A stretch of 64,000 nucleotides of DNA from a virus. Positions 5,841 through 26,074 of this stretch are shown here, one piece after another. Below the pieces are notes generated by a model. That model made no database searches. It was not told the origin of the DNA and saw only the letters and a list, made by a program, of their open reading frames with translations. Positions within the stretch are counted from its first letter, which is position 1; each line of letters begins with the position of its first letter. Location of the stretch: the IMG/VR virus record IMGVR_UViG_3300030098_004420, positions 1 to 64,000 of that record. One strand, 5' to 3'. Position numbers and translations under genes: made by a program.

Positions 5841-8800
5841 GTGGCAGCATCACAACAACAAAAAGTAGACTTTCTATTAAAGAAGATTGGTTATACCGCA
5901 TCCAAGACTGGACTTGCGGAAGATTCTAGTTTAAGTGGAACTAAGAAGGCTCCTTTTGCTGAAGCCGTTCCATCTCCATTAGTCATTGCAAGTACGTGTT
6001 TATGGGCAGATAGTACATATATTCCAGCGACTCCTCCTGGATCTGATAGTGATTATGTAAAGGTATATCTTAGTGCTGCTTCTGGTCATAGAATGACTGT
6101 TGACAGTACAGTTTCTGGTAATCGTGCTTATATTGCTTACTCAACTTATAATGATAATGGTACTGCAATCTTAGGTGACTGGATTGATACTCAATTTGGT
6201 GCTAGTTATATTATAAAAGTATATAAAGGTGATCCAAACTCTGGTGGTGTTCAATTATCTGCTGCTGGTTCTGGTTCTAATGATGGATGGTTCTTTGATT
6301 ATTCTGCTGGTATTCTAAACTTTAATGATACCAATGTTCCTAGTGGAGTAACAGATAGTAATATCTACGTTGTTGGTTACAGATATATTGGTACAAAGGG
6401 ACCAACTGCTGCTGGTGGTATTAGTACATTTACAACTCAATATGTATCAGGTGTTTCTACATTTGCTGATGATGTAAATCTATATGGTACTACTGGTGTA
6501 ACATCTGCATACTGGGATAAGACTGGAGATGCAGTTATACTTAAGGATCATACTAAAGCTTCATTTGGTACTGGTCAGGACTTAGAATTCTTTCATGATG
6601 GTGCAAACAGCACGATTAAAAATACTACTGGAACACTTTTTGTTGACAATGGTGGAACAACTTTTAGAAATGTAAGTGGTACTGAAACACAACTTGCTAT
6701 TAGTGATAATGGTTCAGTTGCTGCATACTTTGATAACGCCAAAAAGATAGAAACTCTTTCGGTTGGTGCTACAGTTACGGGCAACTTAGGAGCTACTTCT
6801 GTTAGTATATCTGGTATCTCTACATTTGAAGGTAATGTAGATGCTAATGGAACTTTAGATGTAGATGGTCAAAGTGAATTAGATGATGTTAATGTATCTG
6901 GTGTATCAACATTTGGTCAATTAGTTTCTGCTAGTGCTGGAGCAAATATTGCTGGTGCTGCTGGATTAAACGTTGCTGGAGTAACAACAGTTGGTGGGCA
7001 GATAGATGGTAATGCTGGAGCAGATATTTCTGGTGGAGAAACAACTTTAAGTTCTGCTACTATATCAGATCTAACTTCAGGGAGACTTACTGTTGCTGGT
7101 ACTAGTGGTGCTTTACAAGATAGTTCTAACTTAACATTTGATGGTACTAATAAATTAGCTGTAACTGGTGGACTAACTGTTTCTGCTGGTGCTACTCTTA
7201 GTTCTAATTTAGATGTGGATGGTGGAGCAGATATTTCTGGTGGTGGTGGAACAACACTTAACGTAGTAGGTCATACTGAATTAGACAGAGTTAATGTAAG
7301 TGCTGCATCTACTTTCGGTGGAGATATAGATGCGAATGGTAATATAGATGTAGATGGTCGTGCTGATTTAGATGACGTAGTTGTTACTGGTGTAGCAACA
7401 TTCTCTAATAATATTGATGCTGATGGTAATTTAGATGTAGATGGTCGTACTGATTTAGATGATGTAGTTGTTACTGGTGTAGCAACATTTTCTGCTTTAG
7501 TTGATGGTAATGCTGGTGCAAACTTCTCAGGTGCTGAAACAACTTTAAGTTCTGCTACTGTATCTGATTTAACAGATAATAGAATTGTACTTGCTGGTAC
7601 TTCTGGGTCATTAGAAGATAGTAGTAAGATAACTTTTGACGGAACAACTCTTGCTATAGTTGGAGATGCTACCTTCACAGGAAACGTATCTGTCGCAGGA
7701 ACATTAACCAGTGAAGATAAGGAAAATATAGATTCAGTTGGATTAATAACTGCAAGAACTGGTGTAAGAATTACTTCTGGTGGTCTTACTGTAAATTCTG
7801 GTGTTAGTACATTTACTGATGCTATTGATGCTAATGGTGGTTTAGATGTCGCTGGTGGTTCTGGTTTAGTCGCTTCTTCTGCTAAGATTTCTGACTTAAC
7901 TTCGGGAAGAGTTGTAGTCGCTGGTACTTCTGGAGAACTAGAAGATGCATCTACGTTCACTTTTAGTGGAGGAACTGTATCTGCTACTGCGTTCTCTGGT
8001 ACAAATCTAACAGGAACACTACAAACTGCTGCACAACCAAATATAACTTCATTAGGAACGATTGCATCTTTAGTCGCTTCAAGATCACAGGTTACTGGTG
8101 TTGGTGGATTTAGTGTAACTGGTGTTTCGACTTTCACTGGTGACATAGATGCGAATGGTAATATAGATGTAGATGGTCGTGCCGATTTAGATGACGTAGT
8201 TGTTACTGGTGTTGCTACATTCTCTAATAATATTGACGCTGACGGAGATTTAGATGTAGATGGTCATACTGAACTTGATTATGTAAATGTATCTGCTGCT
8301 GCTACCTTTGCTGGTTTCATTGATGCTAATGCTGGTGCTAATGTCGCTGGTGGATTTGTTGCTAACAGTGCTAAAATTTCTGACTTAACTTCAGGAAGAG
8401 TCCCAGTTGTTGGTACTGATGGAGAACTAGAAGACGCATCCACCTTTACATTTAGTGGAGGAACTGTTACTGCTACTGGGTTCTCTGGTAATTTAACAGG
8501 AACATTACAGACTGCTGCTCAAGGTAATGTTACATCAGTTGGAACTCTAACTGGATTGGATGTCAATGGTCATACAGAATTAGATAACATACAGGTAACT
8601 GGTATAGCAACAGTCGCTAATGTAGTTCTTACTAAAAACACCACAGGTGTTGGTGCTACGATTGGTGGATTAAATGTTGGTGTTGTTACTTACTATGGTG
8701 ATGGATCACAACTTACAGGTATAGATGCTACTGCATTAAAAGATAGTGGTGGTAACGTAAAGGTACAAGCAGTTACTACTGGTGCAGTTGTTACTGGTCT

Positions 8801-11510
8801 TATTACTGCTACTCAAGGATTCTCTGGAGAAATTACTGGTGTAGGTGCTACGTTCACTAACATTACTGGTACATTACAGACTGCTGCTCAAACAAACATC
8901 ACATCACTTGGAACTCTAACTGCATTAACAGTAACTGGTAATGTAGATGCTAATGCTGGATTAGATGTTACTGGTGTTGGTGGATTAAGTGTAACTGGTG
9001 TTTCAACATTTACTGGTGCTGTTGATGCGAATGGTGGTGTTGATATATCAGGTGGAGCAAACACTTTAAATGTTACAGGTCATACAGAATTAGATAATTT
9101 AAATGTATCTGGTATAGCAACGATAGCAAATGTAGTTCTTACAAAGAATACTACAGGTGTTGGTGCTACTGTTGGTGGTCAAAATGTTGGTGTCGTTACT
9201 TACTATGGTGACGGTTCAAAACTTACAGGTACTGGTTCAGACTCTGGTGGTACTCAAAGAGTAGAAGTAGTTAATACTGGTGTGATTCTTGTTGGTGTTA
9301 TAACTGCCACAGATCAATTCAGTGGACAGATTACTGGTGTAGGTGCTACGTTCACTAACATTACTGGTACATTAGTGACTGGTGCTCAAACTAATATTAC
9401 ATCACTTGGAAATCTAACTGGATTGACTATAAATGGTGATGAAGAATTTTATGGTTCTGCTGGTGTTACATCTGCTATCTGGGATAAGTCAGAAAATACT
9501 TTAAACTTTAAGGATCATACTAAAGCTACCTTCGGAACTGGAAATGATATAAGCATATATCATGATGGTGCAAATTCATATGTAGATAACGCTACGGGTG
9601 ATTTCTTCATTAGAAACAATTCTAATGCAATAAAAATTCGACCAAAAAATGATGAAGAATCTATAGTAGCTCATGAAAATGGATCTGTACAGCTCTTTTT
9701 TGATAATTCACAAAAATTTGAGACGACTTATACGGGAACGGTAACGACTGGTATTGGTACTTTTAGTGGTGGAGTTAAAATCGCTGATGATAAATCATTA
9801 ACTGTAGGTAATGACGATAATTTATACATCAAACATAGTGATGGTCACGGTAAGAATTTCTTCGTTTCATCTGTTGGTGACTGTGAATTCCATATGGCTG
9901 GTTCTGAAAAAGCCATGGAATTTAAGACGAATGGTTCAGTAGACATCTACTATAATGCGTCCAAAAAATTCGAGACGACTCATACGGGAGCGATTGTAAC
10001 TGGTATTGCTACTGCTACTACTTTTAGTGTAGGTGATGGTTCTCATAGTACTGATAGAATATCTATTGGCGATGATAATGATTTCGCTTTGTATCATAAT
10101 GGCTCAAATTCGTTTGTTGTAGATCGTGGAACTGGTCCACTGTATATAAGAGGTAATAACGCAGTTCGTATTGAGAGTTATACGAATGACGCTGCTGGCG
10201 AAGCAATGATTATTGCTAATTCTGACGGAGCCGTTGAAGCATACTATGATGCGTCCAAAAAATTCGAGACGACCTATCATGGAGCGATTGTAACTGGAAT
10301 ACTAACTGCTACTAGTGATATTAAGACTACTGCTAACATATATGGTGCTCAAGGACATTTTACCGATCACATATACATTGCAGATAAGATAGTTCATACT
10401 GGAGATACAAATACTGCAATAAGATTCCCTACTAATGATACATTCACAGTAGAAACTGCTGGTTCAGAAAGACTTCGCATCACATCAGCAGGTAATGTCG
10501 GTATCGGAACTGATGCTCCAACTAATTTTAATGCTGCTGCTGATAATTTAGTTGTTGGTGGTGGAGCTGGACATCATGGAATGACTATATGGTCAGCTGC
10601 TGATGGAGATGGTTGGTTAGTCTTTAATGATGCAGTTAACACTAATTTAACTGGAGCAGTTCAATATAACCATGTTAGTGATTACATGGCCTTTAGAACA
10701 GCTACTACTGAAAGACTTCAGATCACAAGTAATGGTAGAGTATTAATTGGAACAGGTGCAGTTGGTGCATCTAGTAATCTTGTAGCACAAGGTGGTTTAC
10801 AAGTTAGTGCAAATGGTGCTTCTGGTGCTCCTTCTCTTTGCATAGGTGCTGATGGTACAGGAGCTAATACTCAATCCTTAACTGATGATACAGTGAAGGA
10901 CTGTAGAATTGGTTATCCTAACTATGATATAGATGAAGAACCACTTGCATTAATATCTGGATTTGTTGGAGATGGTTCTTCATTAGATGACAATGACGGT
11001 GCAAGGATCTATATTGGTGGTGGAACTAGTTACTTGAATGCAGTTAATCAGGTTAGATTCTATACACAAAATACAAATATCGCCACTGTAACTGGTACAG
11101 AAAGATTTCGCATTGGACCCGATGGTACAGCAGACTTTAATTCTAATACAGTTCAAAAGGCAGTACTAAAGAACTATACAGAAACTGTTAAGGCTGTTGG
11201 TAATACAGGTACATCTGCAACTCTTGACTTAGCAGATGGTAACGTCTTCACTGCCACACTAAATGGTAACTGTACATTTACATTTACTACTGGTACGAAC
11301 TCAGCTCCTAATGCTGCATCATTTACTTTAATACTAGCGAATGATAGTACACCAAGTAGAACCATTACTTGGCCTGCAGCAGTTAAGTGGCCTAACAACA
11401 GTGCTCCTTCCAGAACTACTGCTGCAAGTAAGACTGACATTTGGACATTCATGACTCCTGACAATGGCACTACATGGTATGGTAATATAGCCCTATATAA
11501 CTTTACATAG
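5841..11510 (+). CDS. Giant tail fibre / virion structural protein, 1889 aa
   Basis: A GTG start with a good Shine-Dalgarno (AGGAGAGG) 10 bp upstream; GTG-GCA is a recurring start in this genome. Residues 1-195 form a conserved-looking head domain (KVDFLLKKIGYT, PSPLVIASTCLWADS). The shaft of about 1400 residues is built of repeats: GVSTF/GVATF, DANG-DVDG, SDLTSGRV, ITGTLQTAAQ.NITSLG, YYGDGS.LTG, and four WDK- or SKKFET-type modules. The last 110 residues (VFTATLNGNCTFTF, TWPAAVKWP, TWYGNIALY) are the tip domain seen in many marine phage fibres. Direct DNA repeats inside the gene (7326-7424 and 8145-8243) and a 53-bp patch shared with the fibre at 60855 suggest recombination. Confidence 0.85.
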   Translation: MAASQQQKVDFLLKKIGYTASKTGLAEDSSLSGTKKAPFAEAVPSPLVIASTCLWADSTYIPATPPGSDSDYVKVYLSAASGHRMTVDSTVSGNRAYIAYSTYNDNGTAILGDWIDTQFGASYIIKVYKGDPNSGGVQLSAAGSGSNDGWFFDYSAGILNFNDTNVPSGVTDSNIYVVGYRYIGTKGPTAAGGISTFTTQYVSGVSTFADDVNLYGTTGVTSAYWDKTGDAVILKDHTKASFGTGQDLEFFHDGANSTIKNTTGTLFVDNGGTTFRNVSGTETQLAISDNGSVAAYFDNAKKIETLSVGATVTGNLGATSVSISGISTFEGNVDANGTLDVDGQSELDDVNVSGVSTFGQLVSASAGANIAGAAGLNVAGVTTVGGQIDGNAGADISGGETTLSSATISDLTSGRLTVAGTSGALQDSSNLTFDGTNKLAVTGGLTVSAGATLSSNLDVDGGADISGGGGTTLNVVGHTELDRVNVSAASTFGGDIDANGNIDVDGRADLDDVVVTGVATFSNNIDADGNLDVDGRTDLDDVVVTGVATFSALVDGNAGANFSGAETTLSSATVSDLTDNRIVLAGTSGSLEDSSKITFDGTTLAIVGDATFTGNVSVAGTLTSEDKENIDSVGLITARTGVRITSGGLTVNSGVSTFTDAIDANGGLDVAGGSGLVASSAKISDLTSGRVVVAGTSGELEDASTFTFSGGTVSATAFSGTNLTGTLQTAAQPNITSLGTIASLVASRSQVTGVGGFSVTGVSTFTGDIDANGNIDVDGRADLDDVVVTGVATFSNNIDADGDLDVDGHTELDYVNVSAAATFAGFIDANAGANVAGGFVANSAKISDLTSGRVPVVGTDGELEDASTFTFSGGTVTATGFSGNLTGTLQTAAQGNVTSVGTLTGLDVNGHTELDNIQVTGIATVANVVLTKNTTGVGATIGGLNVGVVTYYGDGSQLTGIDATALKDSGGNVKVQAVTTGAVVTGLITATQGFSGEITGVGATFTNITGTLQTAAQTNITSLGTLTALTVTGNVDANAGLDVTGVGGLSVTGVSTFTGAVDANGGVDISGGANTLNVTGHTELDNLNVSGIATIANVVLTKNTTGVGATVGGQNVGVVTYYGDGSKLTGTGSDSGGTQRVEVVNTGVILVGVITATDQFSGQITGVGATFTNITGTLVTGAQTNITSLGNLTGLTINGDEEFYGSAGVTSAIWDKSENTLNFKDHTKATFGTGNDISIYHDGANSYVDNATGDFFIRNNSNAIKIRPKNDEESIVAHENGSVQLFFDNSQKFETTYTGTVTTGIGTFSGGVKIADDKSLTVGNDDNLYIKHSDGHGKNFFVSSVGDCEFHMAGSEKAMEFKTNGSVDIYYNASKKFETTHTGAIVTGIATATTFSVGDGSHSTDRISIGDDNDFALYHNGSNSFVVDRGTGPLYIRGNNAVRIESYTNDAAGEAMIIANSDGAVEAYYDASKKFETTYHGAIVTGILTATSDIKTTANIYGAQGHFTDHIYIADKIVHTGDTNTAIRFPTNDTFTVETAGSERLRITSAGNVGIGTDAPTNFNAAADNLVVGGGAGHHGMTIWSAADGDGWLVFNDAVNTNLTGAVQYNHVSDYMAFRTATTERLQITSNGRVLIGTGAVGASSNLVAQGGLQVSANGASGAPSLCIGADGTGANTQSLTDDTVKDCRIGYPNYDIDEEPLALISGFVGDGSSLDDNDGARIYIGGGTSYLNAVNQVRFYTQNTNIATVTGTERFRIGPDGTADFNSNTVQKAVLKNYTETVKAVGNTGTSATLDLADGNVFTATLNGNCTFTFTTGTNSAPNAASFTLILANDSTPSRTITWPAAVKWPNNSAPSRTTAASKTDIWTFMTPDNGTTWYGNIALYNFT
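7143..7195 (+). repeat. 53-bp segment identical to 61644-61696 in another fibre gene
   Basis: These 53 bases are identical to 61644-61696 in the fibre gene 54 kb downstream, and sit within a longer similar stretch (about 7005-7195 against 61505-61696). Both copies encode the shaft segment LAVTGGLTVSAGAT. This indicates recent exchange or duplication between fibre genes. Confidence 0.85.
7326..7424 (+). repeat. Near-identical 99-bp direct repeat within a fibre gene (copy 2 at 8145-8243)
   Basis: The two copies are 819 bp (273 codons) apart, in frame, and differ at only a few, mostly synonymous, bases. They encode the DANGNIDVDGRADLDDVV module. Recombination between them would delete 273 residues of the shaft without breaking the frame. 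Confidence 0.8.
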
Positions 11511-11535: not shown

Positions 11536-12153
11536 ATGACTGAACTACAACATTCTCCTGGAAAGTGCCAATATAATCAGTTTATTGGCATTTATGAAAA
11601 TGTATTTCCCGATGGTTATTGTAACCATCTAGTTACTGAAATGGAGAGTCTTTTAGCAACAGGAGCTGGTTATGATAGACAATCTACTGAAGGTGTTACT
11701 AAAACAGTAAAACAGGATGAATATGTTTTCATTAATATGAAAATTCATAATCCTAATCCATTTAATGGTGAGATGTGTCAGAAGATTTTTTGGGATGGTC
11801 TCCAACATTGTTTTGATCGATATTGTAGGGAGTATGATATTTTAAAAGATATGCCTCTTAAGGCTACTACTCTTAAATTACAGAAGACTGTTCCTGGTGG
11901 AGGATATCATGTTTGGCATTGTGAGCAGGGAACAGAAGATGGTGCTAACAGAGTTGCTGTTTACAGTTTGTATTTAAATACAATTGAAGAAGCAGGAGAA
12001 ACCGAATTCTTATATCAAAAATTGAGACTACCTGCAAAAGAAAACACAATGGTTATTTGGCCTGCTGGTTACACTCATCCTCATCGTGGAAATGCTGTGT
12101 ATGGTGACAAGGCAAAATATATTCTAACAGGATGGTTTTATGTTGATTATTGA
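11536..12153 (+). CDS. 2-oxoglutarate/Fe(II) oxygenase (prolyl-hydroxylase type)
   Basis: A 205-residue double-stranded beta-helix oxygenase. Likely iron ligands are His128 and Glu130 in VWHCE (an HxE variant of HxD) and a distal His in GYTHPHRGN (181 or 183). The 2-oxoglutarate anchor would be Lys194 in KAKYILTGWFYV. Such enzymes hydroxylate Pro, Lys, Asn or other side chains while turning 2-oxoglutarate into succinate and CO2. The next gene, 40 bp on, encodes a Gly-Asn-Pro collagen-like protein whose prolines lie in the Y position, so prolyl hydroxylation of that fibre is a natural hypothesis. Substrate and activity are inferred, not shown. Confidence 0.85.
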   Translation: MTELQHSPGKCQYNQFIGIYENVFPDGYCNHLVTEMESLLATGAGYDRQSTEGVTKTVKQDEYVFINMKIHNPNPFNGEMCQKIFWDGLQHCFDRYCREYDILKDMPLKATTLKLQKTVPGGGYHVWHCEQGTEDGANRVAVYSLYLNTIEEAGETEFLYQKLRLPAKENTMVIWPAGYTHPHRGNAVYGDKAKYILTGWFYVDY

Positions 12154-12161
12154 TTCTTAAT

Positions 12162-12169
12162 TATAAATA
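12162..12169 (+). promoter_or_regulatory. T4-type late promoter TATAAATA
   Basis: A perfect TATAAATA lies 24 bp upstream of the start of the collagen-like fibre at 12194. Confidence 0.65.
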
Positions 12170-12193
12170 AACTTATAGGAAAATAATAGAAAA

Positions 12194-15100
12194 ATGGCAA
12201 TAGGAACCAAAAAAGTATTAGCTCCTGGATTTATGGAACCTGCGGATTCCGTAACCTTTAATAATCCAGGTACTTTTGTTGCTCCTATGAGACTAAGGAA
12301 CCTTACTGTAACAGGTAGAGGTGGTAGTGGTAATCCAGGTAATGCAGGAAATGGTGGTAATGGTGGTACTGCAGGATCTGCTGGTAACTCAGGTAATCCA
12401 GGAACAGCAGGTAGTGGAGGTTCAGCAGGAAACCCAGGTGGTGATGGTAATGTAGGTACTGGTGGTAATGCAAACCCAGGTAATGCAGGTAATAATGGTG
12501 CTGCAGGAACAGCAGGTAACTCAGGTAACCCAGGAACAAAAGGTAATGGTGGTAGTGCAGGAAACCCAGGTAATGATGGTAATGTAGGTAGTGGTGGCAC
12601 CAAAGGTAATGCAGGAAACCCAGGTAATGCTGGAACTGCTGGTAACGGAGGAACAGCAGGAAACCCAGGTAATCCAGGTAATAATGGTGCTGCAGGAACA
12701 GCAGGTAATGCAGGTAATTCTGGAACTGGTGGTAACGGAGGTTCAGCAGGTAACCCAGGTAACTCAGGAACTGGTGGTCCTGGTGGAACAGCAGGAAACC
12801 CAGGTAACTCAGGAACTAATGGTGGTGCAGGAAACCCAGGAAATTCAGGAAACCCAGGAGGAAGTGGTAACGGTGGTCCTGGTGGTAATGCAGGTAATCC
12901 TGGTAATCCTGGCGGAACAGGTAATTCAGGAAACGCTGGAGGAGGAGGCGGCGGTGGTGGCGGTGGTGCCCAAGATTGGAACGTCGCTCCTATGCATCCA
13001 GGAAATCCAGGTAATGCTGGATCACCAAGTCCAGGTGGAGGACCAGGAGGTGCTGGAGGACCAGCTGCTGGACCTAACTTAGGACATACCGCTTCAGGAG
13101 GAAATGGTCAACCAGGAAATAGTGGAGGAGGTGGTTGGAACGGTAACCCAGGTAGTAATGGAAACCCAGGTCACGGACATAATAATGGTGGTAGTGGAAA
13201 TAGTGGACATAATGGTAACCCAGGTAACTCAGGTAATGCAGGGAATTATGGGTCTAATGGTAACCCAGGAACTGGTGGAGGAACAGGAGGTGGTGGTAGC
13301 TCAGGTAATCCAGGAACAGGAGCTACCAACGGTAATCCAGGAAGTCCAGGTAACCCAGGAACAGGAGCTAATCCAGGAACAAATGGTAACCCAGGTAATC
13401 CAGGAACAGGTGCCAATGAAGGTAACGCAGGATCAAGTGGTAACCCAGGATCAGGAGCTAATAACGGAAACCCAGGTAATTCAGGAGCAACAGGAAATCC
13501 AGGAACAGGTGCTACATCAGGAAACCCAGGAACAAATGGTACTGATGGATCTGGTGCTGGTAGTGGTGGTGCGGGTGCTGATGGTAATCCAGGAAATGCT
13601 AACCCAGGTAATGCAGGAAATCCAGGTACAGCAGGAACAGGTGCTACATCAGGAAATCCAGGCACAGCAGGAACAGCAGGAACAGGAGCTACATCAGGTA
13701 ACCCAGGTAATCCAGGAAATAATGGAAACCCAGGTAATGTAGGTAATCCATCATCAGTATTTGGATTAACATTCTCTGGTGGTAATGGTGGTACTGCTGG
13801 TAGTGGTAATCCAGGAACAGCAGGTAATCCAGGAAATAATGGTACTGGTGGTGCAGGTAATCCAGGTAACGCAGGAACCAATGGTACAGGTGGTACTGCA
13901 GGTAATCCAGGAAATGCTGGAACTGCTGGTACTGGTGGTAGTGCTGGTAACTCAGGTAATCCAGGAACATCAGGAACAAAAGGTAATGCTACTGGAGGTA
14001 ATCCAGGTAATAATGGTGCTGCAGGAACAGCAGGTAACCCAGGTAATGCAGGTAATCCAGGAACTAATGGAACAGGTGGTACTGGTAACCCAGGTAATGA
14101 TGGAAATAATGGTGCAGGTGGTACTGCAGGAACAGCAGGTAATCCAGGAAATAATGGTCCAGGTGGAACAGGTAATCCAGGTAATGCAGGAACCAATGGT
14201 ACAGGTGGTACTGGAAATCCAGGAAACTCTGGGGGTGCTGGTACTGGTGGTAGTGCTGGTAATAGAGGTACTGGAGGAAATGGTGGACCAAGAGGTAATG
14301 CAGGTAATCCTGGTGGATCAGGTAATCCAGGAGGAAGTGGATTTGGTGGCACTGGAGGACCAGGAGGAACTGGTGGTCCTGGCGGTGGAGGAGGCGGTGG
14401 AGGCGGCTCTACCGTAGGAGGATCATTTGGTGGATCTTCTGGACATTCTGCTGGTGGTGGATATAGTGGTGGTAATGGTGGTACCCAAGGTCCAGGTGGA
14501 TCTGGTGGTACTGGTGGTGGTGCTAACTCAGGATCTGGTGGTCATTCAGGATGGCATGCATCTAATGGTAATACAGGACCAAGTGGATCTGGACATAATA
14601 ATGGTGGTAGTGGTAACCCAGGCAGTCCAGGTACTGGAGCTACATCAGGTAACCCAGGACATGGTGGTAACCCAGGAAATGGTAACCCAGGTAATGCTGG
14701 TTCAGATGGTAATCCAGGAAGTGGTAACCCAGGTAACCCAGGATCTGCAGGAACAGCAGGAACTGGTGCTGGTTCAGGTAATGCAGGTGCTGATGGCAAT
14801 CCAGGAAATGCTAACCCAGGTAATGCTGGTTCTGATGGTAACAATGGTAACCCAGGAACAGGAGCAGGTGAAGGAGGAGCAGGAGCAAATGGTAATCCAG
14901 GAAACCAAAACCCAGGAAACTCAGGAGCAGCAGGTAATCCAGGAACAGGTGCTACATCAGGAAATCCAGGTAACTCAGGTAATCCAGGAACAGGAGCAGG
15001 TGAAGGGCAAGCAGGAGCAGATGGTAATCCAGGAAACCAAAGTAGTGGAGGTTCAGGATCTGCAGGAACAGCAGGTAATCCAGGAACAGGTAATCCAGGA

Positions 15101-15217
15101 GGTGCTGGAGGCACAGCACCTGCTAGTAACTTAGCGTCGTTGATAACTGGTGGTACTTCTTATCCAGTAGTTGTTGGTCCTGGTGGATATATAACAATTA
15201 CTTACGAGACACAGTAA
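12194..15217 (+). CDS. Collagen-like Gly-Asn-Pro repeat fibre, 1007 aa
   Basis: After an N-terminal beta-rich head (about residues 1-42: VTFNNPGTFVAPMRLRNLTV), nearly the whole protein is Gly-X-Y triplets dominated by GNP, GNA, GTA, GNS and GTG. Pro is almost always in the Y position. There are two similar halves: each has a triplet array, a poly-Gly run (near residues 249-258 and 729-738), a Ser/Gly/His/Trp-rich insert ending GHNNGGSGN, then a GATSGNPG array; a short FGLTFSGGNGG segment near residue 520 separates them. The C-terminus (SYPVVVGPGGYITITYE) is a beta cap. It could form a collagen triple helix or a polyglycine-II bundle as in T4-like gp38 adhesins. A tail-fibre role is inferred from location and sequence. 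Confidence 0.85.
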   Translation: MAIGTKKVLAPGFMEPADSVTFNNPGTFVAPMRLRNLTVTGRGGSGNPGNAGNGGNGGTAGSAGNSGNPGTAGSGGSAGNPGGDGNVGTGGNANPGNAGNNGAAGTAGNSGNPGTKGNGGSAGNPGNDGNVGSGGTKGNAGNPGNAGTAGNGGTAGNPGNPGNNGAAGTAGNAGNSGTGGNGGSAGNPGNSGTGGPGGTAGNPGNSGTNGGAGNPGNSGNPGGSGNGGPGGNAGNPGNPGGTGNSGNAGGGGGGGGGGAQDWNVAPMHPGNPGNAGSPSPGGGPGGAGGPAAGPNLGHTASGGNGQPGNSGGGGWNGNPGSNGNPGHGHNNGGSGNSGHNGNPGNSGNAGNYGSNGNPGTGGGTGGGGSSGNPGTGATNGNPGSPGNPGTGANPGTNGNPGNPGTGANEGNAGSSGNPGSGANNGNPGNSGATGNPGTGATSGNPGTNGTDGSGAGSGGAGADGNPGNANPGNAGNPGTAGTGATSGNPGTAGTAGTGATSGNPGNPGNNGNPGNVGNPSSVFGLTFSGGNGGTAGSGNPGTAGNPGNNGTGGAGNPGNAGTNGTGGTAGNPGNAGTAGTGGSAGNSGNPGTSGTKGNATGGNPGNNGAAGTAGNPGNAGNPGTNGTGGTGNPGNDGNNGAGGTAGTAGNPGNNGPGGTGNPGNAGTNGTGGTGNPGNSGGAGTGGSAGNRGTGGNGGPRGNAGNPGGSGNPGGSGFGGTGGPGGTGGPGGGGGGGGGSTVGGSFGGSSGHSAGGGYSGGNGGTQGPGGSGGTGGGANSGSGGHSGWHASNGNTGPSGSGHNNGGSGNPGSPGTGATSGNPGHGGNPGNGNPGNAGSDGNPGSGNPGNPGSAGTAGTGAGSGNAGADGNPGNANPGNAGSDGNNGNPGTGAGEGGAGANGNPGNQNPGNSGAAGNPGTGATSGNPGNSGNPGTGAGEGQAGADGNPGNQSSGGSGSAGTAGNPGTGNPGGAGGTAPASNLASLITGGTSYPVVVGPGGYITITYETQ

Positions 15218-15259: not shown

Positions 15260-15913
15260 ATGCCAAAAAAAGAATCTGAAATTCGTAAGAAGATCAATGA
15301 AATGGCTGAAGAAAATGAATATTACAATCTTCAGCAAAATAAAAATCGAGCTCGCTCTATTACATGTGGAACTGCTTTTGGTGGAACCATAGAAGTTAAT
15401 ATGAGGGGTGATCACCATTCTATGTGGTGTAGTATGACACCTGTAGAAGCACTTGAGTTTGCAGAACAAATGGCTGCTGCTTGTGGTGTTCAAGTTGCTT
15501 TAAGACCTAAAGATGACTTTAGTGCTTGGAGAGGATGGGACATTGAAAATACTGAATATTCTCACTTTAAAGGTGCTGCACCTTGGCAAGTGCATAATAT
15601 TGCAGGAGCAAATGTTCATCAAAGTAGACTTGGTGGAAGTGGTGGTACTGCTGGTACACCAGTTGAAGATGAGTATCCTTCAAAAGAGGAACGAATTGCT
15701 GAGTTTAAAAGACAAAGAGATGAAGCACAAGCTGAGTTGGAAAATCTAGAAAAAGATCCTGAGGATATTATGGATGATATTGGAAATCCTGAAATTGCAA
15801 TAGCAGGTGTTCCAACTGAAAAAATGTTTGATCAGAAGGTTCAACATGAAGCTAATCTCATGAGTAAGAATCTAGAAGCTATAAAAGAACAACAAGAGGC
15901 ACAAAACGAATGA
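15260..15913 (+). CDS. Fibre-cluster protein with C-terminal coiled coil, function unknown
   Basis: A 217-residue protein. Residues 30-110 hold a compact, probably alpha/beta domain (GGTIEVNMRGDHHSMWCSMTPVEALEFAEQMAAACG, with VALRPKDDFSAWRGWD). The C-terminal half is charged and helical (EERIAEFKRQRDEAQAELENLE), a likely coiled coil. It lies directly behind the collagen-like fibre and overlaps the next gene by ATGA. I associate the MRGD...SMTPVEALEFAEQ pattern with conserved cyanophage proteins near tail fibres; an assembly-partner role is only a guess. Confidence 0.65.
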   Translation: MPKKESEIRKKINEMAEENEYYNLQQNKNRARSITCGTAFGGTIEVNMRGDHHSMWCSMTPVEALEFAEQMAAACGVQVALRPKDDFSAWRGWDIENTEYSHFKGAAPWQVHNIAGANVHQSRLGGSGGTAGTPVEDEYPSKEERIAEFKRQRDEAQAELENLEKDPEDIMDDIGNPEIAIAGVPTEKMFDQKVQHEANLMSKNLEAIKEQQEAQNE

Positions 15914-16479
15914 CTAGAACAAATTTATATGTTCATGTTAATACTGTGGATAAGAAAGTTTTTTCTCATCCAACAGAGGTACCAGAAAACTGGAGTAACA
16001 TTCATGGTTTCTCCAGTTTAACTGATACTGAATTATCTGATTTATCAGATAGGCATCGTCCAAACGAAGCTTGGCTCAAATTTGATTCAAGCTTCGCTGT
16101 AGATGATTATACTTATGATGATGATTGGTTGGATGGTGCAAAGGGAACCATCAAATTGGTATATAAAAATCAAAGACAAGAAGCAATTAAGAAAGGTGTT
16201 TCTTATAACAGTATAATATTTGATGCTGATGCAGAGACACAAATTAAGATGAATATAAAGAAAGATTCATCTGCAACTTCTTTTAAGTGGAAGTATAATA
16301 ATACTTTCTATACATTAAGTAAGTCTGATATAACAGCAGTTCATAACGCTCTTGACGATTATATTCAGAAGTGTTATGATATGGAAGCGAATTATGTTAG
16401 TCAAATAGAAGCTGCAACTGATGCTGCTGGACTAAGAACCTTTACTTTAGATGGTACGTGGCCGACTAATTCATATTAA
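15910..16479 (+). CDS. DUF4376-like tail fibre accessory protein
   Basis: A 189-residue protein overlapping its upstream neighbour by four bases (ATGA). The C-terminal 90 residues (IIFDADAETQIKMNIKKDS, FKWKYNNTFYTLSKSDITAVHNALDDYI) follow the DUF4376 pattern: a spread of D-A/T residues, a W-x-N strand, then a helix before a final IEAATDAAGL segment. DUF4376 domains are typically found at the end of phage fibre proteins or in fibre assembly factors. The family assignment is by eye, and no function beyond fibre association is claimed. Confidence 0.6.
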   Translation: MTRTNLYVHVNTVDKKVFSHPTEVPENWSNIHGFSSLTDTELSDLSDRHRPNEAWLKFDSSFAVDDYTYDDDWLDGAKGTIKLVYKNQRQEAIKKGVSYNSIIFDADAETQIKMNIKKDSSATSFKWKYNNTFYTLSKSDITAVHNALDDYIQKCYDMEANYVSQIEAATDAAGLRTFTLDGTWPTNSY

Positions 16480-16502: not shown

Positions 16503-17168
16503 ATGGCATCACAATCATATTGGTTTTATACTGGTCTTCCAGATAAAGTTATAGATGCTATTGAAGAAGATTTAGAATTAAATTTAGATCCTAAGTTAGC
16601 ATCTTCCGTAGTAGGTCATACTAATTTAGATACTGCTGAAAAAAATGAAGAAAGTGTAGTATATATTGATAAAAGAAAAAGAAATGCATTGAATGCTTGG
16701 ATTCCTGCTGAACATTGGATAACAGGATTCTTATGGCACTATGTAATGATGGCTAATCGTATGAATTTTTTATATGATATTGAGCATGTAGATAGAAACT
16801 CTCTTCAATATACTGTATATAATGAAGGTCATTTTTATGGATGGCATAATGATGGAGGACTTCCTATTTGTTATCAACCAGTCAGTAATGGAAATCAAGG
16901 AAGTTTTGATGAATTAACACAAGATTTTCTTTCTACAACCTGTGAGAAAGTAAGAAAACTTTCTTTTAGTTTACTCTTATCTGATCCTGAAACTTATGAA
17001 GGTGGTAACTTTCAATTAATGGATGAGAATGAGAAGACTTACATTGCACCTAGACAGAAAGGTTCAATAATTCTTTTTGATTCAAGAGCAAGACATAGAG
17101 TTACACCTGTAAGAAAGGGTACACGTAAATCCATTGTTGGATGGACTATTGGACCACGTTGGAAATAG
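16503..17168 (+). CDS. 2-oxoglutarate/Fe(II) oxygenase (PKHD type)
   Basis: A 221-residue oxygenase with clear motifs: His115 and Asp117 in YGWHND, distal His198 in ARHRV, and Arg208 in GTRKSIVGW for 2-oxoglutarate binding. EGGNFQLM between them is typical of the PKHD-type hydroxylase core. It is one of two adjacent oxygenase genes (the next starts 6 bp after its stop) placed between collagen-like and Gly-rich fibre genes. A fibre-modifying role is inferred from position; DNA or small-molecule substrates remain possible. Confidence 0.9.
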   Translation: MASQSYWFYTGLPDKVIDAIEEDLELNLDPKLASSVVGHTNLDTAEKNEESVVYIDKRKRNALNAWIPAEHWITGFLWHYVMMANRMNFLYDIEHVDRNSLQYTVYNEGHFYGWHNDGGLPICYQPVSNGNQGSFDELTQDFLSTTCEKVRKLSFSLLLSDPETYEGGNFQLMDENEKTYIAPRQKGSIILFDSRARHRVTPVRKGTRKSIVGWTIGPRWK

Positions 17169-17174
17169 TTTATT

Positions 17175-18008
17175 ATGGCTCATGATGAACATGGTATGTG
17201 GATTCAAGATGATATTCCTTATAGAGAACGTCTTAATTCAGGTACATCTCTAACAAATCATAAAGAGTTTGAGGAGAATGGATATTTTGTTGTAAAGGAT
17301 TTTTATGATCCTCAATTTTTTTATGAATTGCCTCCTAAAAAACCAGGAAAATATGATTATAATGGTGATGTCAATTTGTATAATTATAATGAGAATGAAG
17401 GGCAGGTAAAAAATAGTACGTCAAGAACTAAGTACCCACCATATGAGAGTGCACATACTCGTATTAGATATAAACTTGAAAAACTTATAGGTAAAAAACT
17501 TTATAATACTTATTTTTATGATCGTTTTTATGTACCAGGATATCCATTAACTCCTCATACAGATCGTCCTGCTTGTGAGATTTCTGTAACACTTCATATT
17601 AGTAGTAATGTAAAAGATCCGTGGCCTATTTGGATTAAGGGTGCAGATACTTATGATATTCCTAGAGCTAAAAATCCGTGGAGTAAAAAAATTATAAACC
17701 AAGGACTTGAACGTTCAGTTATTTTAAAACCTGGCGATGCCTTAATTTATAAAGGATGTGAAAGACCTCATTGGAGAGAACCATTACCTAGAGAATATAG
17801 AACAATATATAGTATTCAATATACTGATGATATAACATCCATTCCACCAAAAGTTTATTCAGAACCTCAATATGGTATGAGGGAAGAGATTGGAGGATTA
17901 TATTATCATCAAATATTTTTTCATTATGTTTTACAAGATGGGTTGAGAGCAGATAAGGCTTGGGATAATAATGATTGCGATCCAATGCTATGGCCAAGTA
18001 GGTTATAA
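17175..18008 (+). CDS. 2-oxoglutarate/Fe(II) oxygenase-like protein
   Basis: A 277-residue protein. The core motif is His128 and Asp130 in LTPHTDRP, distal His199 in ERPHWRE, and Arg209 in EYRTIYS as the probable 2-oxoglutarate anchor. GDALIYKG before the distal His is the usual strand preceding this site. The N-terminus (FEENGYFVVKDFYDP) has the opening common in phytanoyl- and prolyl-hydroxylase-like proteins. It is longer than the neighbouring oxygenases, with an unassigned C-terminal extension (DGLRADKAWDNND). It lies directly after another oxygenase and before a Gly-rich fibre; a late promoter overlaps its stop codon. Confidence 0.8.
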   Translation: MAHDEHGMWIQDDIPYRERLNSGTSLTNHKEFEENGYFVVKDFYDPQFFYELPPKKPGKYDYNGDVNLYNYNENEGQVKNSTSRTKYPPYESAHTRIRYKLEKLIGKKLYNTYFYDRFYVPGYPLTPHTDRPACEISVTLHISSNVKDPWPIWIKGADTYDIPRAKNPWSKKIINQGLERSVILKPGDALIYKGCERPHWREPLPREYRTIYSIQYTDDITSIPPKVYSEPQYGMREEIGGLYYHQIFFHYVLQDGLRADKAWDNNDCDPMLWPSRL

Positions 18009-18039: not shown

Positions 18040-19719
18040 ATGACTACAGGGCAAATTGCTTATACTATTCCTGGTACTTACTCGTTTGTGTGTCCCATTG
18101 GAATTACTTCTGTCTCCGTTCTTTGTATCGGTGGAGGAGGACAGGGTGGAAATTCAAGTGCCCTTGACTCTCCAGGTGGAGGAGGAGGTGGATTAGGATA
18201 TAAAAATAATATTCCTGTTACTGCTGGACAATATTATACTGTTGTTGTTGGAGAAGGTGGAGCAGTTCTTAAACAAAGGGGTGAGAATGGTGTAGATGGA
18301 TTGGATAGTTATTTTATAAGTAAGGATACTGTTGTTGGGTTTGGTGGTAAAGGTGGACAGACTGGTGGAAATGCTGGTGCTGGTGGAACATACTTTGGAG
18401 ATGGTGGTGGTAATGGTGGTGCTGGAGGTGCTGCAAATAGTCTTCAAGGTGGAGGCGGTGGAGCAGGAGGGTACTCTGGTAACGGTGGAGATGGATTAAG
18501 TTCTGCTTCTGGTAGTAGTGGTGCTGGTACTGGTGGTGCTGGTGGAGGAGGATATAAAGCAGGTGGAGGTGGTGTAGGACTTCTAGGTGAAGGTTCTAGT
18601 GGTGCTTCTGCAAGTTCTGGGACTATTGGTAATGCTGGTTCGGGTGGTATTAATGCTACTGTTCCTACAATATCTTTTCCTTATGTTAATTTTTCTGGAG
18701 TTGCTACCAATTATACTTACACTAGTCCATTATTTTTAGTTGGTGGAGCATATGGTGGAGGTGGATGTAGTGCTTGGGCAAATGGAGGTGGAAGTGGTGG
18801 TGCAGTACGTATTATATGGGGTGAAGGAAGAGAATTTCCCTCAACTAATACAGGAGATGTTGGTATAGGAACCACTTCTCATAGACTTTATATTACTATT
18901 AGTGATGGTGAAGCATCACAACATCCCATATATGAATCTAACTTTAAGGAAGCATTTCCAAGTGTAGATGCTGATAATTTAGATAAGGATGAGTATTGTC
19001 TTTTCCAACGGGTTAAACGTACTTATTTGACTGCCTATGAAAAAAATCAAGTCAATAGTTATAGAAATTCTGAACCAATAACTATATTAACTTTAAACAA
19101 TACTGTTAATACTGTAGAGTGTCCTCCATTTGCTGTGATAAAAGGAGAGACAAGTGGTGCTACTGGATATGTTATTCCTAATTTAATTAATGATGGAAAT
19201 ATAGATCAAAGTACGATTAGTGATGTAATACAATTACAAAAAACTGTAGGGACTTTTAGTGTTCCTGAACAAATTTCTTTTAATGGATCGGGTGATCCAG
19301 AGAGAAGAATCACTAATATTGGTATTGGTACAACAACACTTGTGAACTTTAATACAGGAGCACCTGGTGTAATTGAACCATATGGAGATAATTTTTACTA
19401 TGATGTGTGGACTCATGATATAATGACAGACTCTGAAAAGACCACAAAACAAAATCAAATTAAGAGTGAATGGAATACCAGAGTTGGTACTTCATTATCA
19501 TCTTGGATTTTTGATGATGTTTCTTGTTCATATAAAACTCCAACACTACCTCCAACTCCTGCTAAAATTGGTATACAAACTAATATAGCTGTATATGATA
19601 AGGTAACTAATGAATATTTGGGTGTAGGAACAGCAGATGCTTATGTCCCATTACCACAATATCGTTGGGATGAGGCAGCATATCAGGCAGACAACACAAA
19701 GGGTTGGGTTACCGACTAA
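18040..19719 (+). CDS. Glycine-rich tail fibre protein
   Basis: A 559-residue protein in three parts. The N-terminal beta sandwich (YTIPGTYSFVCPIGITSVSVLCIGGGG) is the start typical of Gly-rich phage adhesins. Residues 30-265 are Gly-rich (GGGGGAGG, GGAGGGG, AYGGGGCSAWANGGG) and could form a polyglycine-II bundle. The C-terminal part has beta domains (LYITISDGEASQHPIYESNF; SGATGYVIPNL) and ends YRWDEAAYQADNTKGW, like the tail of fibre assembly/DUF-type proteins. It has its own late promoter. Receptor binding is inferred. Confidence 0.75.
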   Translation: MTTGQIAYTIPGTYSFVCPIGITSVSVLCIGGGGQGGNSSALDSPGGGGGGLGYKNNIPVTAGQYYTVVVGEGGAVLKQRGENGVDGLDSYFISKDTVVGFGGKGGQTGGNAGAGGTYFGDGGGNGGAGGAANSLQGGGGGAGGYSGNGGDGLSSASGSSGAGTGGAGGGGYKAGGGGVGLLGEGSSGASASSGTIGNAGSGGINATVPTISFPYVNFSGVATNYTYTSPLFLVGGAYGGGGCSAWANGGGSGGAVRIIWGEGREFPSTNTGDVGIGTTSHRLYITISDGEASQHPIYESNFKEAFPSVDADNLDKDEYCLFQRVKRTYLTAYEKNQVNSYRNSEPITILTLNNTVNTVECPPFAVIKGETSGATGYVIPNLINDGNIDQSTISDVIQLQKTVGTFSVPEQISFNGSGDPERRITNIGIGTTTLVNFNTGAPGVIEPYGDNFYYDVWTHDIMTDSEKTTKQNQIKSEWNTRVGTSLSSWIFDDVSCSYKTPTLPPTPAKIGIQTNIAVYDKVTNEYLGVGTADAYVPLPQYRWDEAAYQADNTKGWVTD

Positions 19720-22269: not shown

Positions 22270-22898
22270 CTGTAAAACTTGTTAGTGTTACTCCTGATGC
22301 GGAGCAACTTATGGCATATATTGCCAGAGTATCTAATCCATCTAATCAGGACAATGAAAAGTATGCAGGACTATTGAAGTATTGCATCAAGCATAATCAT
22401 TGGAGCGTCTTTGAGCAGTCTACTATGACTCTTGAGATAGAGACTACTCGTGCTATTGCTGCACAGATATTAAGACATAGAAGTTTCACATTCCAAGAGT
22501 TCTCACAGAGATATGCAAGTAGCAACGATTTAGGTGATATTGATTTACCAGAACTTCGTAGGCAAGATACAAAGAATCGTCAGAATTCTATTGATGATTT
22601 AGATTCTGAAATGGTTGATAAACTTAATCGTCAGATGATTACTCTGTTCAGTTCTGCTAAGAGTCTTTATACTCAAATGTTAGATGCTGGAGTTGCGAAA
22701 GAATGTGCTAGAATGGTGTTACCACTCTGTACTCCTACCAGAATCTATATGACTGGTTCATGTCGTTCTTGGATACATTATATCAATTTACGTTCAGCAC
22801 ATGGAACACAGAAAGAGCATATGGTGATAGCAGAAGCATGTAGAGAGGTGTTTATTGAGCAGTTCCCTTCAGTATCAGAAGCCTTAGAATGGAAGTAA
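22266..22898 (+). CDS. thyX: Flavin-dependent thymidylate synthase
   Basis: A 210-residue ThyX. It makes dTMP from dUMP with methylene-tetrahydrofolate, FAD and NADPH. The signature RHRX7S is at residues 70-80 (RHRSFTFQEFS), followed by QRYA. CTPTRIYMTGSCRSWIHYINLR carries the dUMP-binding and catalytic Arg/Ser region near the C-terminus. ThyX is a core nucleotide gene of cyanophages, replacing T4 ThyA-type td. The start overlaps the upstream stop by ATGA; the end overlaps the next oxygenase gene by 10 bp. Confidence 0.97.
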   Translation: MTVKLVSVTPDAEQLMAYIARVSNPSNQDNEKYAGLLKYCIKHNHWSVFEQSTMTLEIETTRAIAAQILRHRSFTFQEFSQRYASSNDLGDIDLPELRRQDTKNRQNSIDDLDSEMVDKLNRQMITLFSSAKSLYTQMLDAGVAKECARMVLPLCTPTRIYMTGSCRSWIHYINLRSAHGTQKEHMVIAEACREVFIEQFPSVSEALEWK

Positions 22899-23485
22899 AA
22901 CAACTTCCTAATGATGGTTATCTTCGTAGTTCTTTACCAAAAGAACTATTTGATTCTTTATTAACTGAAGGATTAGAATGTCATAATAATGAAAATAGGA
23001 TTACAGGATTGGTGAGACCTAATGGTACTCAAACTTGCCCTCATTATGATATGTCAGATAAAAATTCTGATTGTTTAAAGGATTTTATTTTTCCTTATAT
23101 CGATCAATATAAGGAAAATTTTACTTATGTTCAAAATCTTAAATGTTTGACTAGTAATAGTCCTTTTATTTTTGGAAAACCGTGGTATAATATTCAAAGA
23201 CCTAATGATTATTTACCGATTCATACTCATGATGGGGTTTTATCATACACTATTTGGTTAAAACTTCCTCCTTTATCTGAATTTATCTTTTATTATTCTG
23301 GTATAGTAAATCAAAAGGACTATACAATGAGACTTACACCTCAAGATGAAGGGGACTTTATTTTTTTCCCTGCTACTTTGGCTCATGGGGTACATCCTTT
23401 TCCATCAAATGATCCTAATGAAATTAGAATAAGTATTTCTGGGAACATTTCTCTGCAAGGAGTTGATGATTATCTATCTAAATAA
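22889..23485 (+). CDS. 2OG-Fe(II) oxygenase superfamily protein
   Basis: A 198-residue protein with the pattern of the 2OG-FeII_Oxy_5 type: IHTHDGVLSYTIWLKLP (His112, His114/Asp115) then FFPATLAHGVHPF (His166) and NEIRISISGN (Arg180). In this family the first ligand pair is often HxH rather than HxD. It overlaps thyX by 10 bp and sits among early genes, so its substrate is probably not the late fibres, unlike the oxygenases at 11-18 kb. Substrate unknown. Confidence 0.8.
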   Translation: MEVKQLPNDGYLRSSLPKELFDSLLTEGLECHNNENRITGLVRPNGTQTCPHYDMSDKNSDCLKDFIFPYIDQYKENFTYVQNLKCLTSNSPFIFGKPWYNIQRPNDYLPIHTHDGVLSYTIWLKLPPLSEFIFYYSGIVNQKDYTMRLTPQDEGDFIFFPATLAHGVHPFPSNDPNEIRISISGNISLQGVDDYLSK

Positions 23486-25192: not shown

Positions 25193-25442
25193 TAAAGAAC
25201 TCGAAAAAGCTATAGAGGATAAATTTTTAACTCCTTCTAAATTTGCTATAGAAATTGAAAAAATTGTAGCAGAAGAAGGATTTAATTATATTGATGCAAT
25301 ATTATACTATTGTGAATCTAATAGTTTAGAAATAGAATCAATTACAAAATTGATTTCAAAACCACTTAAAGAAAGACTTAAATGGGATGCCATTCGTCTT
25401 AACTTTATGAAAAAAACATCTAGAGCAAAATTACCATTATAA
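25182..25442 (+). CDS. gp33: gp33-like late transcription co-activator
   Basis: An 86-residue protein. I chose ATG 25182 (MEPSKELEKAI); the longer open frame from 25077 lies inside the nuclease gene. The sequence TPSKFAIEIEKIVAEEGFNYIDAILYYCESNSLEIESITKLIS matches the small gp33 pattern of T4-like cyanophages, which links RNA polymerase with the sliding clamp at late promoters. Gene order gp33...gp59...gp32 supports this and mirrors T4. The many TATAAATA/CTAAATA boxes here are the expected targets. No gp55 sigma factor is in the window. Confidence 0.7.
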   Translation: MEPSKELEKAIEDKFLTPSKFAIEIEKIVAEEGFNYIDAILYYCESNSLEIESITKLISKPLKERLKWDAIRLNFMKKTSRAKLPL

Positions 25443-26074
25443 TGGAAAAACTTGAGGGATTAACGTTTCTTGAACCTTTTCCTCATTTAATTATAAACAA
25501 TTTTTATAATGATGAAGAACTTGAGTTAATTTGGGAAGAACTTAAATTCTATACTAAACCAGGTAAATTTTTACCTGCTAAGGACTATGGTGGTATAGAA
25601 GGATATACTGATTCAAAGGCATTATGTTTAGATCATCTTTATATTACTGGAGATCCTAATTATCGGCCAATATCCAATATTCTTACTGTTAATAGAAAAG
25701 TATTTGATGATTCTGTTCTTCAATCATTTTCAGACATACATGATTGTTGTGGGTTAGCATCACTATCAAATTATGATATTACAAAGGTAAGGTATTATCA
25801 TAATGGTGATTATTATGATCCACATATCGATAAAAGTATTCAATTTTTAGCATTTTCTTATTTTTATAAAGAACCTAAGAGATTTACTGGTGGAGAGTTA
25901 ATATTCCCAAAATATGATTTTGAGTTGACATGTGAAAATAATTCACTTATAATGTTTCCAGGTTGGGTAGAGCACGGAGTAAAAAAAGTAAATATGGAAG
26001 ACTCTAATTATTATGAAGGCTATGGTAGATATGCTATCACTAGTTTTTTTGGAAGTAAACATATTAAAAAATGA
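25442..26074 (+). CDS. 2-oxoglutarate/Fe(II) oxygenase (prolyl-hydroxylase type)
   Basis: A 210-residue protein with clear motifs: His128 and Asp130 in YYDPHIDKS, TGGELIFP, distal His178 in WVEHGV, and Arg196 in YGRYAIT. The N-terminus (LEPFPHLIINNFYNDEELELIWEEL) is typical of small phage prolyl-4-hydroxylase-like proteins. It is inserted between gp33 and gp59, which are neighbours in T4, and is joined to gp33 by TAATG and to gp59 by ATGA. It is therefore probably expressed with replication genes. Confidence 0.9.
   Translation: MEKLEGLTFLEPFPHLIINNFYNDEELELIWEELKFYTKPGKFLPAKDYGGIEGYTDSKALCLDHLYITGDPNYRPISNILTVNRKVFDDSVLQSFSDIHDCCGLASLSNYDITKVRYYHNGDYYDPHIDKSIQFLAFSYFYKEPKRFTGGELIFPKYDFELTCENNSLIMFPGWVEHGVKKVNMEDSNYYEGYGRYAITSFFGSKHIKK

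Follow-up and report, generated by a model that had tools for sequence, protein, structure and literature searches.

A conserved phage gene cassette links 2OG/Fe(II) oxygenases to a candidate glycine-rich tail adhesin

Introduction

Aquatic phages carry genes for 2OG/Fe(II) oxygenases in abundance, and what these enzymes do has been described as cryptic or uninvestigated (PMC9301287, PMC9602691). A cyanophage isolate carrying 24 of them was read as reprogramming its host, the functions of the genes being uninvestigated (PMC9602691), and viral use of prolyl 4-hydroxylase (P4H) was termed cryptic in a 2022 survey (PMC9301287). The locus described here, where an oxygenase gene lies immediately before that of a large fibre rich in Gly-Asn-Pro, raises the question of whether such an enzyme acts on a protein of the phage itself. 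The original prediction was of a prolyl hydroxylase-like enzyme modifying an adjacent collagen-like fibre.

The window is the 64,000-nucleotide stretch of DNA that was analysed, positions 1 to 64,000 of the 78,881-base IMG/VR virus record IMGVR_UViG_3300030098_004420. Its closest DNA matches are uncultured marine viruses, and its protein relatives among named phages are mostly T4-like cyanophages.

Oxygenase and fibre genes in the window

The genes of the region are as follows.

5841..11510, + strand: upstream tail fibre, 1889 aa (PHROG tail-fibre matches)
11536..12153, + strand: oxygenase B, P4H-like 2OG/Fe(II) oxygenase, 205 aa (PF13640 match, cassette B profile, invariant residues)
12194..15217, + strand: Gly-rich, Gly-Asn-Pro-rich fibre, probable tail-tip adhesin, 1007 aa (composition; N and C termini common to relatives)
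15260..15913, + strand: small conserved cassette protein, possible fibre chaperone, 217 aa (alignment)
15910..16479, + strand: DUF4376/tail fibre assembly-like protein, 189 aa (PF14301, 43 bits; phrog_10508, tail fibre)
16503..17168, + strand: oxygenase A, 2OG/Fe(II) oxygenase, 221 aa (PF13640, 54 bits; cassette A profile, 236 bits)
17175..18008, + strand: oxygenase C, 2OG-oxygenase-like, HxD ... HWR, 277 aa (phrog_2954, 181 bits; cassette C profile, 266 bits)

Oxygenase B ends 40 bp before the fibre ORF, and A and C lie behind the partner genes of the fibre, which agrees with the original prediction of one oxygenase gene before the fibre and two more behind. A profile search of the window for a fourth cassette enzyme, oxygenase D, gave no match. 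Two further 2OG oxygenase genes (22889-23485 and 25442-26074; PF13759, PF13640) are found outside the cassette, bringing the window to about five.

Oxygenase B matches PF13640 (2OG-FeII_Oxy_3) with 39.6 bits, above the cut-off of 27, and scores 321 bits against the cassette B profile. Its catalytic residues, H128-x-E130 ... H183 ... K194, are invariant in 42 homologues, and each of the four is conserved (93% or more) across 118 sequences. The first motif is HxE instead of HxD, as it also is in the B relatives that are not linked to a fibre. The distal motif resembles that of P4Hs, and P4Hs of the Bacillus anthracis type (3itq, 5hv0) are the nearest sequences of solved structure, a match of low similarity and low significance (E about 0.001). 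Judged by its sequence, B is a P4H-like 2OG/Fe(II) oxygenase, and the prolyl hydroxylase-like nature first proposed for the gene is upheld.

Oxygenases A, C and D retain conserved His/Asp motifs. A, like B, belongs to PF13640, D to PF13759 and C to phrog_2954. The same Pfam families (PF13640, PF13759) hold the 2OG/Fe(II) oxygenases of cultured cyanophages (PMC9602691). The names ferrochelatase or DNA endonuclease V, given to the families phrog_2954, phrog_3531 and phrog_274, look like annotation errors; the proteins that these families match here are 2OG-oxygenase-like.

Linkage of oxygenase B to the fibre

Relatives of the locus, present in numerous uncultured phages of aquatic origin, share a cassette with the usual order (D)-A-B-(C)-fibre-small protein-tail assembly chaperone (PF16778), containing up to four 2OG-oxygenase genes; the window has a rearranged order (B, fibre, small protein, DUF4376, A, C). 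The small protein is directly 3′ of the fibre in most relatives, and fibres of 300-600 aa share conserved N and C termini with the window fibre.

The linkage was counted from three anchors, which share some contigs and are not fully independent samples. With B as the anchor (80 IMG/VR relatives, L001-L080), a Gly-rich, GxP-rich ORF was found downstream in 47/47 uncut loci of L001-L048 (41-86% identity); the one contig left out ends 2 bp past the match. The fibre usually starts within about 40 bp of B, or one gene later where C intervenes, and in a single locus (L043) two genes intervene. No such fibre lies immediately downstream in L049-L080, and in 28/32 of these the sequence continues for at least about 1 kb on that side. 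The B profile scores are correspondingly bimodal, at 262-343 bits for fibre-linked and 158-197 bits for unlinked sequences. The small protein, whose gene is distinct from those of the enzyme and the fibre, gave 73 new loci as an anchor, and B was present immediately ahead of the fibre or of C in all 55 that reach far enough upstream, the other 18 having contigs that begin within 0.8 kb of the fibre or lack a fibre. With the fibre termini as the anchor, B was present in 65/65 loci, a count that includes L272 (ORF start mis-called) and omits the second fibre of the tandem pair in L245, where the upstream sequence is cut. The predicted co-occurrence of oxygenase and GNP fibre in related phages was thus seen from every anchor.

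In the maximum-likelihood tree fibre-linked B forms one group, with a single label change (95/92). Because it is one clade, the co-occurrence is read as one gain and not as many gains and losses: from the sequences, the association was probably gained once and then kept over large divergence. For the joint gain and loss across cyanophages that the original prediction named as a check, the co-occurrence reflects one clade and not repeated gain and loss.

The oxygenases could also act elsewhere, on host metabolism, nucleotides or other proteins, with the tail region merely carrying such genes. Phage 2OG oxygenases are usually read in terms of host reprogramming (PMC9602691), more distant B relatives in P-SSM2 and S-CAM8 are located in replication or metabolic regions, and a linkage of one evolutionary origin is also compatible with this reading. 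It is nevertheless unlikely, given strict adjacency and an order kept down to about 40% B identity, genes that are commonly a few bases apart or overlapping, and a Pro/Asn composition of the fibre that tracks the enzyme.

Outside the clade, B relatives on Shewanella and Massilia chromosomes have no Gly-rich gene next to them in the loci inspected. A search of 50,697 phage records recovered neither the fibre-linked B clade (best identity 38-39%) nor the small cassette protein, and no cultured phage with the cassette was found by searching with either. In the cultured Synechococcus phage Sf-CH1b (L392; PV340850.1, 44812-51212) a run of oxygenase genes comes right after the tail collar gene, and the inspected stretch has no Gly-rich GxP fibre.

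Two loci extend the picture. In L060 (7304-10600; the same locus as L311) a GxP-rich fibre is followed by a short gene and then by oxygenases that are A-like and B-like but fall outside the clade, a gene order different from that of the cassette; this is possibly an independent association of oxygenases with a GxP fibre, and L325, L343 and L344 may be similar. In L156 (3204-6338; JARGNI010000079.1) an A-B-fibre-small protein-chaperone cassette is on a contig binned with a Verrucomicrobiales MAG. The cassette may therefore not be confined to cyanophages, L156 representing either a possible non-cyanobacterial host or mis-binning.

Composition of the fibres

The window fibre is 39% Gly, and 747 of its 1007 residues (249 triplets) lie within Gly-X-Y runs of three or more. 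Pro occupies Y in 60/249 triplets (24%) and X in 10/249, a preference for Y that is far from chance. The description of the fibre as almost all Gly-X-Y with Pro in Y was therefore overstated: the positional preference is real, and it concerns about a quarter of the triplets. The Y-position Pro is nearly always in GNP (56/60 triplets), Asn being far commoner before Pro than before other Y residues (odds ratio 29, p=5e-18).

The same patterning is seen across the family. GxP per Gly has a median of 0.099 in 127 distinct fibres, and most of the 32 other Gly-rich ORFs taken from these loci have values close to 0 (p=2e-12). This control group retains a few cut or tandem fibres, and several of its higher values belong to such ORFs lying beside a family fibre. 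Counts over 72 fibres place 565 Pro in Y and 74 in X. Asn before Pro is in excess in 61/64 fibres (odds ratio 5.8), Asn being also frequent before Ala, Gly and Ser, and the recurrent unit is Asn-Pro-Gly. Cassettes with and without an adjacent C show weak differences in fibre residues that are confounded by kinship.

Directly after oxygenases A and C the window encodes a second Gly-rich protein (18040-19719, 559 aa, PF21722 Gly_rich_2) with zero GxP within its Gly-rich part, so proximity to A and C alone does not accompany GxP repeats. Some phages repeat their Gly-rich fibres: L002 has two fibre modules, with one B seen, L245 has them in tandem as a pair, and L259 encodes three additional Gly-rich, Pro-rich ORFs whose Pro occupies X as well as Y.

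The adhesin might instead be modified at Asn, Thr or other residues, or be given hydroxyl handles for sugars, the Pro of GNP being purely structural. In its favour are the enrichment of the Asn-Pro pair, the presence of several different oxygenases and the HxE of B in place of HxD. Against this, the distal motif of B and its nearest solved relatives are P4H-like and Asn is not restricted to positions before Pro, and this reading is considered improbable.

Predicted fold and position of the fibre

Pro in the Y position recalls collagen, and the fibre might be a collagen-like triple helix that the oxygenase, as its P4H, stabilises as in animals. Sequence-only searches of the PDB return collagens, matches which are driven by composition and so are weak evidence. 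One uninterrupted Gly-X-Y run has 55 triplets (residues 96-260), and the collagen profile PF01391 scores 21.5 bits, below its cut-off of 27.2. A regular triplet period within the long GXX run is not above that of shuffles. The Gly phase shifts repeatedly, and in the middle section Ala replaces Gly once per about 15 residues, a period compatible with folded-back strands and difficult to reconcile with an unbroken triple helix. Collagen-like GXX ORFs do occur in cassette-bearing phages, and they have Pro in X (L007:5271-9959, 135 GPx and 14 GxP) or nearly none (L008:14857-17937). On the Pfam score, the phase and the predicted fold of a relative the collagen triple helix was rejected; we regard it as quite improbable, and the collagen-like label first given to the fibre is not retained.

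The relative modelled was the L039 fibre (305 aa, 43 aligned sequences). Overall its pLDDT is 81.6; the terminal beta strands and the GXX stretches next to them reach 95-98, and the poly-Gly middle is weaker (down to 46). The top structural match is the Pam3 fibre, a modest one (Z 7.3, 131 residues, rmsd 4.6; Foldseek E 5e-3, likewise modest); others are Bxb1 tail-tip chains and ALK/LTK glycine-rich domains, and S16 gp38 is not among the matches listed (Foldseek/VIA). The model predicts that the L039 fibre is a single-chain adhesin of the polyglycine-II (PGII) type. AlphaFold of the full window fibre, with five sequences, gave a pLDDT of 31.6, too low to be informative, and a PGII-type fold is inferred for it through homology to this short relative.

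The PF21722 Gly_rich_2 profile left the window fibre unmatched and scored 17.2 bits, below its cut-off of 24.3, with the L048 fibre. The joined fibre termini gave zero phage matches by tblastn, as did the full fibre, the latter being a weak negative since low-complexity filtering hides the sequence.

The fibre gene adjoins those of a tail fibre and an assembly chaperone (PF16778 in relatives, the DUF4376/tail-fibre match in the window). In L002, L029, L047 and L048 the C-terminal domain of this upstream fibre is found again immediately ahead of the cassette, so the upstream fibre probably carries the adhesin. The gp37-gp38 pair offers an analogy, in the light of which the Gly-rich protein is probably a tip bound to the upstream tail fibre; it is probably a host-recognition protein.

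Discussion

A hydroxylase-like gene that is always adjacent suggests that the phage chemically modifies its own adhesin. The preferred reading, to which we give a probability of roughly 60%, is of a tail-adhesin cassette whose PGII-type tip adhesin is hydroxylated at its Asn-Pro-Gly repeats by the oxygenases, chiefly by B, the likeliest residue being the Y-position Pro. For the broader proposal, a widespread adhesin-maturation operon with up to four 2OG oxygenases acting on these repeats, we consider the chances even. Weighing against hydroxylation of the adhesin are the single evolutionary gain behind the linkage, and a B enzyme that has HxE, not HxD, and is weakly similar to solved P4Hs.

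Under the preferred reading, the Gly-rich protein would fold as a bundle of PGII-type strands formed by its GXX repeats, sit at the tip of the upstream tail fibre and recognise the host, with the small protein and the chaperone-like protein aiding its assembly. The co-expressed oxygenases, B foremost, would hydroxylate residues of the Asn-Pro-Gly repeat during virion assembly, most likely the Y-position Pro and possibly Asn or others. In collagen, Y is the position modified by P4H, and hydroxylation of Pro there favours the PPII conformation. In the adhesin, hydroxylated Y-Pro may make the PPII/PGII strands more rigid or modify the surface that is exposed.

Parts of such a system have precedents. 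In Pam3 the fibre gp24 bears a Gly-rich domain for host recognition, requires the chaperone gp25 and resembles gp38 of S16 (PMC9608196). The likeness of the cassette to Pam3 gp24/gp25 (7ypx, 7yfw) consists in a Gly-rich domain, for which host recognition is probable here, an assembly chaperone and the modest, partial match of the L039 fibre; unlike in Pam3, the repeats here are Asn-Pro-rich, and oxygenases are absent from the Pam3 description. The gp38 of S16 and PP01 is a PGII sandwich, a Gly-rich tip adhesin placed distally on the long tail fibre (PMC12892980). It serves as a model of how the cassette adhesin might work, although it is not among the structural matches listed. A precedent for a virus hydroxylating a viral protein is PBCV-1, which has a virus-encoded P4H-type oxygenase and evidence for hydroxyproline in viral proteins. 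PBCV-1 is a eukaryotic virus and its enzyme is not known in an adhesin operon, whereas here up to four oxygenase genes lie beside that of a Gly-rich phage fibre. We know of no oxygenase linkage for the gp38 of S16 or PP01. A description of such a cassette was not found in the open-licence papers covered, and if confirmed, an operon of several oxygenases with a PGII-type adhesin would be more than a variant of known systems.

Most phage 2OG oxygenases are filed as auxiliary metabolism. For one clade the phage's own adhesin is now a candidate substrate, being physically linked to the enzyme and matched to it in composition. If the proposal is true, a phage receptor-binding protein would undergo dedicated post-translational hydroxylation, and part of the enigmatic phage 2OG oxygenases would gain a function. 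An adhesin made without its enzymes might then behave unlike the native one, and host recognition would depend on the oxygen, iron and 2OG supply of the infected cell.
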